From positions 960,001 to 1,024,000 of the forward strand of contig NZ_CP039456.1 of the NCBI RefSeq assembly GCF_006974145.1: a stretch of DNA of 64,000 bases. The letters run 5' to 3'. The stretch comes from Changchengzhania lutea. GTDB taxonomy: Bacteria > Bacteroidota > Bacteroidia > Flavobacteriales > Flavobacteriaceae. The notes under the pieces were generated by a model, which worked only from the letters and a program-made list of their open reading frames with translations, had not been told where the DNA came from and did no database searches. Of the stretch, positions 41,951 to 48,062 are shown one piece after another. The stretch's first letter is position 1; the number at the start of each line of letters is the position of its first letter. The translations under genes and the position numbers were made by a program.

Positions 41951-42550
41951 ATGAAAAAATGGCTTATTCCAGTTATTGTTATTGCAGTAATCATTTTCGG
42001 ACTCTATTCATGGGGAAAGAATTTTAATAACACTGCGGTTAATTTAAATGAAAACGTAAAAGAAGCTTGGGGAAATGTTCAAACATCGTATCAAAGGCGA
42101 AATGATTTAATTGGTAATTTGGTAAATACAGTAAAAGGTGCTGCCGATTTTGAAAAAAGCACTTTAGAGGCTGTGATAAAAGCAAGAAGTCAAGCCACCC
42201 AAACCACTATTGACCCTTCCAATATTACACCAGAACAACTGCAACAATTTAATGAGGCTCAAGGCGGTTTAAGTAGCGCCTTGTCAAGATTATTGGTAAC
42301 CGTTGAACGGTATCCTGAATTGAAGGCCAATCAGAATTTCCTGAAACTTCAAGATGAATTAACAAGTACTGAGAATACGATTCAAACAGCCAGAACAAGG
42401 TATAATGAAGCCATTAAGCCTTACAACGTACATGTTAATACGTTTCCTAATACCATTCTTGCTGGCATTTTAAACTTTGATGAAAAACCTTATTTTGATG
42501 CTGAAGCGGGTGCAGAAAAACCTGTAGAAGTTGAGTTTGATTTTAAATAG
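41951..42550 (+). CDS. lemA: LemA family protein
   Basis: The 199-residue protein has a single N-terminal membrane helix (LIPVIVIAVIIFGLYSWG) and the LemA core: VNLNENVKEAWGNVQTSYQR, RNDLIGNLVNTVKGAADFEK, LLVTVERYPELKANQNFLKL, and RYNEAIKPYNVHVNTFPNTI. LemA proteins are widespread, of unclear function, and are often next to TPM-domain proteins. Here the two following genes both encode TPM domains. Spacing to the MerR gene is 11 bases. Confidence 0.93.
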   Translation: MKKWLIPVIVIAVIIFGLYSWGKNFNNTAVNLNENVKEAWGNVQTSYQRRNDLIGNLVNTVKGAADFEKSTLEAVIKARSQATQTTIDPSNITPEQLQQFNEAQGGLSSALSRLLVTVERYPELKANQNFLKLQDELTSTENTIQTARTRYNEAIKPYNVHVNTFPNTILAGILNFDEKPYFDAEAGAEKPVEVEFDFK

Positions 42551-42555
42551 AACCT

Positions 42556-42993
42556 ATGTCTAAAATAGAAGATTTTCTTTCCGTTGAAGAGGAACAGGAA
42601 ATTATAGAAGCTATTAGAGTAGCCGAAAAAAACACCTCTGGTGAAATTCGAGTGCATATTGAAAAATCATCGACACTGGATGCTTTTGACCGCGCCATGG
42701 AATTATTTCATGTGCTTAAAATGGACAACACAAAACTATCTAACGGTGTTTTAATTTATGTAGCCGTAGAAGATAAGACCTTCGTTATTTATGGCGATAA
42801 GGGCATCAATGATGTGGTAAGTCCAGATTTCTGGGATAGCACTAAAGATGTGATGCAAAACCATTTTAAATCCGGTCACTTTAAACAAGGGTTATTAGAA
42901 GGCATCTTAAAGGCTGGCGAACAATTACAAAAATACTTTCCTTGGCAGCACGATGATGTGAATGAGCTACCAAATGATATTTCTAAAGGGTAA
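42556..42993 (+). CDS. TPM-domain protein without signal peptide
   Basis: The 145-residue protein starts EDFLSVEEEQEIIEAIRVAE and shows a TPM (TLP18.3/Psb32/MOLO-1) core with NTSGEIRVHIEK, NGVLIYVAVEDKTFVIYGDK and GINDVVSPDFWDSTKDVM. There is no signal peptide or membrane segment, so it is probably cytoplasmic, unlike the next gene. Such domains may be phosphatase-like or act as assembly factors; no function is proven. It follows lemA by 5 bases. Confidence 0.88.
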   Translation: MSKIEDFLSVEEEQEIIEAIRVAEKNTSGEIRVHIEKSSTLDAFDRAMELFHVLKMDNTKLSNGVLIYVAVEDKTFVIYGDKGINDVVSPDFWDSTKDVMQNHFKSGHFKQGLLEGILKAGEQLQKYFPWQHDDVNELPNDISKG

Positions 42994-43041
42994 AGGTTTA
43001 ATATGAGCTATTCATTTTTTAATATTTCGAATAACAACACC

Positions 43042-43857
43042 ATGAAAATGAAGCCTTTATTTTTGGGTATATTGTTTACGATCTTTTCAGTATCCATAGG
43101 ATTTGCGCAATACGATATTCCAGAAATCCCCAAAGAACAGACCAGTGTTTATGATTACATCAATCTCCTAACACCATCGCAAGCAACTAGTCTTGAACAA
43201 AAACTTATTCGATATTCCGATACCACTTCTACTCAAATAGTTGTTGCCATCATCAGTACTTCTAAAGGTGAAAATATCGGTTTACTCGCCCCAAGATGGG
43301 CCCAAAAATGGGGAATAGGACAAGCTAAGGAAGACAACGGTGTTTTTATTTTACTAGCAAAAGAAGATCGAAAAATATGGATTTCTCCAGGCTATGGTGT
43401 TGAAGACAGATTAACTGCTGGTATTGTGGGACAGCTTACAAGGGATGTTATTATTCCTGAGTTTAAACGTGATGACTATTATAGTGGCCTTGATAAAGGT
43501 TCTGATGCCATATTTGAAGTGCTGACGGGCGCTTATCAGGGGACTAGAAAAGTTTCCAACAACGACGGACCACCTATTGGTTTTGGAGTTTTATTGTTCA
43601 TCGTATTTATCATCATAATCCTATCAATTTCCAAGAACAGACGTGGTGGTGGAAAGGGTGGCAATAGAGGTAACCGTTCTAAAGGGATCAGTATTTTAGA
43701 AGCCATTATACTAAGCAATATGGGCCGAGGCAACTATCGTGGCGGAAGCTCTGGCGGTTTTGGCGGAAGTTCTGGTGGTGGCTTTGGAGGTGGTGGTTTC
43801 GGTGGCGGCTTTGGCGGCGGCGGCTTTTCCGGTGGTGGCGCTGGTGGAAGTTGGTAA
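43042..43857 (+). CDS. TPM-domain membrane protein with glycine-rich tail
   Basis: The likely ATG is at 43042, giving 271 residues with a signal peptide (MKMKPLFLGILFTIFSVSIG, ending FAQ); the frame is open from 43003. A TPM domain follows (QIVVAIISTSKGENIGLLA, then AQKWGIGQAKEDNGVFILLA and GYGVEDRLTAGIVGQL), then a transmembrane helix (about residues 175-195) and a Gly/Ser/Phe-rich tail (GGFGGSSGGGFGGGGFGGGF). This is the YgcG-like layout with the tail in the cytoplasm. It ends one base before the broken outer-membrane gene on the opposite strand. Confidence 0.9.
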   Translation: MKMKPLFLGILFTIFSVSIGFAQYDIPEIPKEQTSVYDYINLLTPSQATSLEQKLIRYSDTTSTQIVVAIISTSKGENIGLLAPRWAQKWGIGQAKEDNGVFILLAKEDRKIWISPGYGVEDRLTAGIVGQLTRDVIIPEFKRDDYYSGLDKGSDAIFEVLTGAYQGTRKVSNNDGPPIGFGVLLFIVFIIIILSISKNRRGGGKGGNRGNRSKGISILEAIILSNMGRGNYRGGSSGGFGGSSGGGFGGGGFGGGFGGGGFSGGGAGGSW

Positions 43858-43858
43858 A

Positions 43859-46636
43859 CTAAAATCTATAGAAATGCCCGCCATCATTAGTTTCACCCTT
43901 TTTCCCTAAGCTATTAAATTTCCAGCTAAAACTCAGCATAAAATACTGTTGTAATACTGTACTTTGGGAATCTTGAATATAATTCTCGGTAGCTGTACGT
44001 CTCGCATTTGTATTTTGATTTAGTACATCGTATGCTTTTAATGTTAGGGTGGCTTGATCTTTTAATAAAGAGTATGCTAAAGTAGAATTCCAAAACCAGG
44101 CACTCTTTTGAAAACCATCTGCAATATTTGGATTGTAATTATATTGAATTTCATTACGCCATTCAAAATGCTTTGGAAAAAATGTAGCTGTACCTAAGTT
44201 TAAGGAATGATACAGGAATTCTCTATCTTCAAAAGATGGAATGTCATACGTGTTTTTTGTGAAATTTATGGAGTAGCGTGGTCTAAATTCCATGATATCC
44301 TTCCATGTAAACAAAACATTTATGTTTGGTGATAATGACTGCACATTGCTAGCATATTGGACACCATTATTAAAATTCACGTTTCTGTTAATATTCGTAT
44401 AAATACCAGCACCATATTTAATGGTCCTTAAGGTGTCCATTTTAACACTTTTGGTATAATTCACACCACCGCCAATACGGTAATTGCCATCAACATTCGT
44501 ATAGGTGGTGCGTCTCACAAAATTCTCATCGATCGTGGTATTTGATACGACTTGATTATCTGTAATCTGGCCATTAAACCAGCTATAAAATCCCGTGCCT
44601 TTTTGAAAATCGTAATTATTATACCCAGCATACATCCTGTGATTGTTTACCGGTTTCAAATTTGGATTCCCCACCACAGTATTTAAAGGGTCTGAAACAT
44701 TTTGAAAGGCCTGCAACTGATTAAGTTGTGGCGGATTGTTATTTAGACGATAACTAGCATAAACAGAAGATTTAGGACTAAAACGATAATTAAACCGTGC
44801 CCTAAGTTCCACAGCCTCGAAATCGCGCTTTAAATTAGATTCTGGTCTTAGGAAATCTGTGTTTTCTAAAGTTCTAAAAACATAGCTCGTTTTAAATCGT
44901 GCAGACCACTTTTTATTTCTATAATTAATTGATATGGCTGGTTTTTGCACGGCATCAACATATTCAAAATCTGTACTTAAATCGATATTAAAAACATTGT
45001 AATCACCGTTAATATCTTTATCAAAAGTACTTTGCTTATCACTACGTTTATCTCTATTATACCTATATTCAAAATTTAAAAACAATTCTTTAGCAATAAG
45101 GGGAAGATTATAATTTATTTCGGTTCCGAACGTGTTGGTCTTATTTTCACCGTCTGTATATTGGTCCCTTAATGTATTATTAGGGGTGTCACCGTAAACA
45201 TTGGTTTCAGAATTTAAAAAATCATCAGTATCCCTACTGTTGATTTCATTCTCTATACTAAACTCTAAATAGGCGCCTTTAGAACCAAACTTTTTAGTAA
45301 TATCGATATCATTACTAAAATTTCTCCCTGAGGTTTCCACAACAGATTCAGTTTCAGAATCATTATTCAGCACATTATCAGCATCACGTGATGTTTCTGA
45401 ACGTGAAAATTCATTCCGGTTTTTTGAATAGCGTAAAGACGGCTCAATATTTATTAATAACGTTGAATCAATTTCAATATCAAACTCTAAATTAGCACTA
45501 TGATTATCGCTACGGTTAAAAGACCTCGACTCTGAAGTTGTAAAATATCTGGCATCCGGTAAGATATTTTCGCGTTCTGTGGTGGTTACATTATCAGAAT
45601 CGCTGCCAGAATAAAAATAATCTGCTGATACATCAACCCCTTCACTTAGCACATCTGCATAATTAACACCCGAATTCTTAGAAGCGGTAATACCTTGTCC
45701 TCCTCCAAAAGAACGCCCATCTATATTAAAAGAGCCATTACTATTGAAGCTTACGGCATTACCGCGACCAAACATTTTACTGATTTCCCCAAAACTAAAA
45801 CCAGGCGAATTGGTATTATTCCCTCCAACTAATACGCTAATACGTTGATCGTTATCAAATCGATTAAACATGCCCGCAAACTCATAAGTTTCTTCTGTAC
45901 CGGCACCTGCCGAAACACGCCCAAAAACCCCTTTATTGTTTTCTTCCTTAATGGTTAAATTAATGGTTTTACTCTCATCATCGCCATCCTCTCCAGAAAA
46001 AGCCTGTGCCTTGGTTTTAGTATCTACAACCTGAATTTTTTCTATAATTTCTTTGGTTAAATTTCGCGTGGTTATGGTCGGGTCGTTTCCAAAAAAGGGT
46101 TTCCCATTCACCAAAATTTTACTAACCTCTTTACCATTAACCGTTATCTTTCCATTTTCATCAACCTCAACTCCAGGGAGCAATTTTAATAAATCCTCAA
46201 CATTGGCATCCTTTTTTGTTTTAAAGGATTTTACATTGAATTCTAAAGTGTCCTGCTTTATCGTAATAGGCGCCCTACTCTTAATGACAACCTCGTCTAG
46301 CGCATTAGCGTCAACCATCATGCGTATGGTTTCAAGTTTAATATCTGAAGTATTTATATCAATAACCTTTGCAAAGGTCTTGTAGCCTACATAGGATACA
46401 AATAGTTGCAGCTTCACATCAGACGTTTTGTCTTCTAAAAAAAACACCCCGTTCTTATCTGTAATCGTGTAGCTTACCAAAGAACTATCTTGTAATCGCT
46501 CCAAATAAACCGTAGCAGATTCAAGCGGTTTTTAATCATCTTCTGAAATTAATTCGCCTGTAATTGAAAATGATTTAGTTTGTGAAAATGATAGCGATGC
46601 CCATAGCAGAGCTATACCTAAAAGAAAGAATCTCAT
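43859..46636 (-). pseudogene. TonB-dependent-receptor-like outer-membrane protein with in-frame stop
   Basis: The minus-strand frame from the ATG at 46636 reads a signal peptide MRFFLLGIALLWASLSFSQ, then TKSFSITGELISEDD, then TAA at 46532-46534, and continues in frame KPLESATVYLERLQDSSLVS. The full frame is 926 codons including the internal stop and the terminal stop. After it come a carboxypeptidase regulatory-like domain, a plug-like region (ITIKQDTLEFNVKSFKTKKD) and a long beta-barrel. It resembles outer-membrane beta-barrel proteins with CarboxypepD_reg and TonB-receptor-like regions. A restart at an internal codon (for example TTG at 46504) would lack the signal peptide. It may be a recent pseudogene or a sequence error. 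Confidence 0.85.
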
Positions 46637-46757: not shown

Positions 46758-48062
46758 TTACTTCTTCCGCATATAAACACTAATAGGCACACCATTAAAA
46801 TCGAAATGATCACGAATTTTATTCTCAAGAAAACGCTTATAGGCATCTTTAACATATTGCGGTAAATTACAGAAAAAAGCAAATTGAGGCTGCGGCGTTG
46901 GCAACTGCATCACGTATTTAATCTTAACGTATTTTGCCTTGTATGCTGGTGGTGGATAATTCTCAATGATAGGAAGTAAGATCTCATTTAACTTACTCGT
47001 CTTAATTTTTTTGGTACGGTTTTTATAAACCTCTACCGCTGTTTCAATCGCTTTAAAAATACGTTGTTTTGTAAGCGCAGATATAAAGATGATTGGTACA
47101 TCGGTAAAAGGCTCCATTTGTTGTCTGATGGCTTTTTCAAACTCTTTAACAGACTTATGATCCTTCTCTACTAAATCCCATTTATTCACTAAAACAACAA
47201 TACCTTTTCGGTTGCGCTCTGCCAACCAAAATATATTTTGAACTTGTCCATCGAACCCACGAGTGGCATCTAAAACAATTAAACACACATCACTATGCTC
47301 AATGGCCCGCACACTTCGCATTACGGAGTAAAATTCTAAATCTTCCTTGACCTTAGACTTTCTACGGATACCTGCTGTATCTACTAAATTAAATTCAAAT
47401 CCGAAGCGATTGTATTTCGTATCAATAGAGTCTCTGGTAGTTCCTGCAATATCCGTTACAATATATCGGTCTTCACCAATTAAGGCATTGATAAAAGATG
47501 ATTTCCCTGCATTAGGACGACCAACAACCGCAAAACGTGGTAAGGCCTCCTCAACAACATCTTCTTTCTCTGGTAAAGCTTCCACCAGCGCATCCAAAAG
47601 CTCCCCTGTACCGCTCCCGTTTATACTGGCAACAGTGTAATATTCACCTAATCCTAAGGAATAAAATTCTACAGCATCTTCTGCACGCTTACCATTATCT
47701 ACTTTATTAACGACAAGAAATACCGGTTTATTCACTTTTCGAAGCAACTTTGCCACGTCTTCATCCATTCCAGTCACGCCAGATTCAACATCTACCATGA
47801 AAATTATCGCATCAGCTTCATCAATAGCCAGTTCCACTTGCTTATCAATTTCAGCTTCAAAAATATCATCACTTCCTTTTACATAACCACCTGTGTCAAT
47901 AAGCGAAAATTCTTTTCCGTTCCAATCACTTTTGCCATAATGTCTATCTCTAGTTACGCCGCTTACAGCATCAACAATGGCTTCTCGCCTCTGGATTAAC
48001 CGATTAAAAAACGTTGATTTCCCAACATTGGGACGACCTACTATAGCTACTATATTACTCAT
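46758..48062 (-). CDS. der: Ribosome biogenesis GTPase Der
   Basis: Der (EngA) has two GTPase domains in tandem and assists 50S ribosome assembly in the cytoplasm. The 434-residue protein carries [15 protein letters not shown] (residue 8 on), NKVDNG, a second P-loop [20 protein letters not shown] (near residue 180), [19 protein letters not shown], and a C-terminal KH-like domain with [20 protein letters not shown]. Length is normal. It is divergent from the hypothetical protein at 48237. Confidence 0.96.

Follow-up and report, generated by a model that had tools for sequence, protein, structure and literature searches.

An outer-membrane barrel gene of Changchengzhania lutea, a marine member of the Flavobacteriaceae, carries an in-frame TAA that is best explained as a single-nucleotide and evolutionarily very recent nonsense mutation, with a probability of roughly three in four. 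The gene occupies 43859-46636 on the minus strand of the window (the whole stretch of 64,000 nucleotides that was analyzed), which forms part of a single contig of 4,130,958 bases rated 100% complete. A single substitution would have created the TAA in an intact barrel gene; translation would start at 46636 and end after 34 codons, yielding a short and useless signal-peptide fragment, and internal starts would produce a protein without a signal peptide, unable to reach the outer membrane. The barrel gene would then be null in this strain, with the remaining frame too young to have decayed. We infer a correct base call and the absence of a full-length product.

The interrupted frame and its predicted protein

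Translation of the gene gives 34 residues, one stop, 890 residues, and a terminal stop (Table 1). The 5′ piece contains a signal peptide recognized by eye (MRFFLLGIALLWASLSFSQ) and matches the signal peptide and first strand of the orthologs in the alignment. A preliminary description of the window had reported that the TAA interrupts a 2.8-kb frame that is otherwise intact; the minus-strand sequence and its translation bear this out, and the 890 codons downstream contain neither a stop nor a frameshift.

Table 1. Coordinates of the barrel gene, its parts, and its neighbors in the window
Feature	Position	Strand	Evidence
5′ piece: ATG, signal peptide, first strand of CarboxypepD_reg-like domain, 34 codons	46535..46636	-	translation, ortholog alignment
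In-frame TAA	46532..46534	-	translation; sense codon in 106/106 distinct orthologs
Remainder of frame, 890 codons, open; terminal stop 43859-43861	43862..46531	-	ORF list, translation
First ATG past the TAA, at codon 71, with no signal peptide following	46319..46321	-	sequence
CarboxypepD_reg-like domain (PF13715), portion 3′ of the stop	46283..46528	-	31.3 bits vs cut-off 32.2
OMP_b-brl_3 outer-membrane beta-barrel (PF14905)	43922..45295	-	87 bits vs cut-off 27
der/engA, upstream neighbor	46758..48062	-	TIGR03594, synteny
TPM-domain protein, convergent neighbor	43003..43857	+	PF04536, synteny

The barrel scores above the cut-off of the OMP_b-brl_3 family (PF14905), and the PF13715 match falls just under its own cut-off because the first strand of that domain is cut off by the stop; an intact ortholog (L060) scores 51.2 for PF13715 and lies above the cut-offs of both families. 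Domain order, signal peptide, and barrel strands are those of the Bacteroidota proteins that combine PF14905 with an N-terminal CarboxypepD_reg-like domain. The predicted structure of L060 (mean pLDDT 69) combines a beta-sandwich at the N terminus with a large barrel, and the residue aligned with the stop is placed in the loop that joins strands one and two of the N-terminal domain. TonB-dependent transporters are the top Foldseek matches to this model (best E 3e-9, TM about 0.2-0.4), and a search for a sequence relative with a solved structure returned none. A TonB-dependent transporter consists of a plug domain, a TonB box, and a 22-strand barrel; a plug-domain Pfam match is absent from both the window protein and L060. 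The lack of a plug match, the low TM-scores of the L060 model, and the stop of the window copy are the points of difference from the transporter-like PF14905 barrels of Bacteroidota. The protein most plausibly has a transporter-like role in the outer membrane.

Orthologs, constraint, and a second stop

Orthologs were drawn from 137 fetched loci, read on both strands, and 128 of these yielded a frame at E ≤ 1e-50; an identity of at least 40% retained 119 (nine were dropped), and counting identical proteins once left 106 distinct sequences, 105 of them with the whole frame. Comparison with relatives, which the preliminary description had proposed as a check, finds the stop absent: all 106 have a sense codon at that column and none has TAA, so a conserved stop common to the relatives is rejected. 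A premature in-frame stop missing from intact homologs is the mark of a nonsense pseudogene, and that is the pattern found here. In the plus-strand subset of loci, 92 of 93 rows are gap-free from eight columns before the stop to 20 after it. The same description had taken the two sides of the TAA for one protein, and the orthologs, which align through the stop with a residue there in every case, support it: judged by this alignment, the upstream and downstream frames are one gene with one nonsense codon. Among stops flagged elsewhere, inspection covered five orthologous or paralogous places, in G267, G356, G019 (two places), and G010:C8, and not the distant paralogs in G001:C6, G047, G048:C7, or G010:C17; at the inspected places no premature stop was found, and only the terminal stop lay within the alignment.

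The residues at the stop column are variable (K in 33 orthologs, Q in 30, N in 22, E in eight, S in six, D in three, and A and R in two each), and in 58 of the 106 orthologs the codon lies a single substitution away from TAA, which fits an origin by single substitution. The suggestion that TAA arose from AAA thus agrees with the data in its first part, a one-base change, and is weaker in its second; AAA is a possible earlier codon, but the column is variable, and fixing the codon would take another genome of the species.

Constraint in the rest of the gene was assessed at 194 alignment columns with conservation of 97% or more among the other sequences, taking as the reference 99 orthologs of at least 52% identity whose frames span 880 or more amino acids (a set that thereby excludes the A. 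pectinivorans sequence described below). At these columns the window copy is free of private changes; the median is one among the 99 relatives, of which 34 also have none, and two among the 40 relatives with comparably long branches, of which five have none. Neither relaxed constraint nor a further lesion was found over the 890 codons and these conserved columns. Either the change is recent, therefore, or the base is an error, or the strain still uses the frame; put otherwise, with no decay past the stop, either the stop is too recent for it or the gene is not a pseudogene. These were the choices given in the preliminary description (great recency, error, or readthrough), and each step of that reasoning holds. 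As a rough inference from the sequence, the absence of private changes would bound the time of drift to less than about 0.7% neutral divergence, if the gene has drifted freely since the stop appeared. Because identity to the nearest ortholog is only about 75% across the full protein, nothing but this absence of decay bounds the date; dating by dS was ruled out, since dS is saturated against the nearest relative. Relative-rate counts are mixed and depend on the outgroup, the window copy being slower than L060 under each of the eight outgroups used and, when L062 serves as the outgroup, faster than L061 (chi-square 23).

A second case was found in Algibacter pectinivorans DSM 25730, whose ortholog (L074) has a single TAA of its own at codon 540 (L074:5510-5512) in a frame that is otherwise open. 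In the closely related A. amylolyticus the ortholog (L108) is unbroken; with the stop included, 26 of 927 positions separate the two sequences (dN 0.012, dS 0.079). The likeness to the window copy lies in a single in-frame TAA with an open remainder, whereas the position at codon 540 makes it an independent event, and this second nonsense codon indicates that such losses occur in the barrel gene. Independent single stops thus number two among 107 distinct copies (the 106 orthologs and the window), a count from which no excess is claimed; such lesions recur at low frequency in the barrel gene.

Of 397 genomes searched within the bacterial family, 141 contain relatives at E ≤ 1e-150, a patchy distribution suggesting that loss is tolerated. 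With two stops in 107 copies and the gene in about a third of the family's genomes searched, these look like ordinary losses of a dispensable surface protein. A scan of named-species genomes gave 80 loci, of which the nearest come from an uncultured Algibacter sp. (76% over its best segment) and from Flavivirga amylovorans (73%). In 59 of these 80, within flanks limited to 4 kb, der lies upstream on the same strand and a TPM gene lies convergently downstream. In the window, a LemA gene and the two TPM-domain genes after it (41951-43857) are convergent with the barrel gene, and this group adjoins the barrel gene in many relatives as well. Tandem pairs of barrel genes about 3 kb apart occur in several other genomes (G350:C1:88831-94514, G330:C23:163025-168740, G133:C27:206170-211865, G248:C25:38239-43903, and G166:C14:78166-83711); no tandem pair was found in the genome of the window. 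Nor does that genome contain a close paralog, its remaining matches being 25-30% identical, and redundancy through a close second copy was rejected on this ground.

Error, readthrough, and other readings of the stop

We favor a recent nonsense mutation first, an error second, and readthrough a distant third, because the relatives lack the stop, constraint is not relaxed, the 39 tRNAs identified include no suppressor, most genes here end in TAA, and about 11% of the genome showed no other clear case. A base-call or assembly error, in which the strain's gene is intact and the TAA exists in the record only, is the most serious rival, though an unlikely one. The change is single and isolated, constraint is not relaxed elsewhere in the gene, and a crude codon-pair scan revealed no other clear interrupted frame, all of which would fit an error. 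The scan covered 464 kb (the window and 20 sampled stretches) and gave 221 sites, of which 43 were selected; by eye, the barrel gene alone was judged to be split by a stop, and the remaining matches resemble same-frame neighboring genes or antisense frames. An earlier single-codon scan with stricter thresholds selected one site, which was not the barrel-gene TAA, and both scans detect stops and do not test for frameshifts. A genome full of similar lesions was thus not seen, and this same scarcity is contrary to what a poor consensus would give. The completeness rating of the single contig also argues against an error, as does the kind of change: long-read errors are usually homopolymer indels, and this is a substitution.

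Functional readthrough, which would make a little full-length barrel and use the stop as a down-regulating device, is very improbable here. In-frame stops have been proposed as such devices for prokaryotes in general, and are reported to be widespread in otherwise conserved prokaryotic genes, with frequent readthrough (Belinky et al. 2021; PMC7918605). The intact and normally conserved downstream frame would agree with this, but recency explains it equally well. The authors of that study also find that such stops tend toward short persistence and assume that most of the detected events lack functional recoding (PMC7918605), which itself speaks against the device; the window stop fits the brief-persistence part of that account. 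The stops they describe are likewise single in-frame stops in otherwise intact, constrained-looking genes, but the study kept those common to orthologs of at least two species (PMC7918605), whereas the window stop is present in no relative. Apart from the intact frame, readthrough has no positive support. Of 227 long frames in the 464 kb (about 11% of the genome), 167 end in TAA, the commonest stop. A tRNA search, which scored 150 of 348 first-look candidates and could miss a very aberrant tRNA, gave 39 genes covering all 20 amino acids, with no anticodon reading UAA, UAG, or UGA. A changed genetic code or a suppressor tRNA was rejected on these counts. The 100 nucleotides past the stop fold no better than shuffled sequences (z -0.35), so that a stimulating RNA fold was not found there.

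It is scarcely credible that the downstream frame is a normal gene with an internal start, although the ORF caller lists 43859-46504 from a TTG. Good start codons are missing close to the stop: the TTG at 46504 lies inside the conserved domain, and neither it nor the ATG at 46321 is accompanied by a signal peptide; 59 aligned orthologs begin with a signal peptide matching 46636. A protein begun internally would lose the signal peptide and part of the domain and could not be exported as an outer-membrane barrel, as the preliminary description had argued. We give little credence to a more elaborate idea, that phages or bacteriocins, for instance, target the barrel at the cell surface and that it is repeatedly silenced by single nonsense mutations and regained by reversion, of which the stop would be a snapshot. 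The two independent stops in 107 copies are compatible with such a cycle of loss and return, and do not demand one.

Consequences for annotation and for the barrel family

A nonsense mutation in this barrel gene is an ordinary event. A mechanical gene caller would annotate the locus as an 881-amino-acid protein that begins with the TTG at 46504, and this does not correspond to the real gene. Should the base be wrong, the TAA is a consensus error in the record; should it be correct, the strain offers a natural null for an uncharacterized barrel family and would be usable as a loss-of-function comparison.
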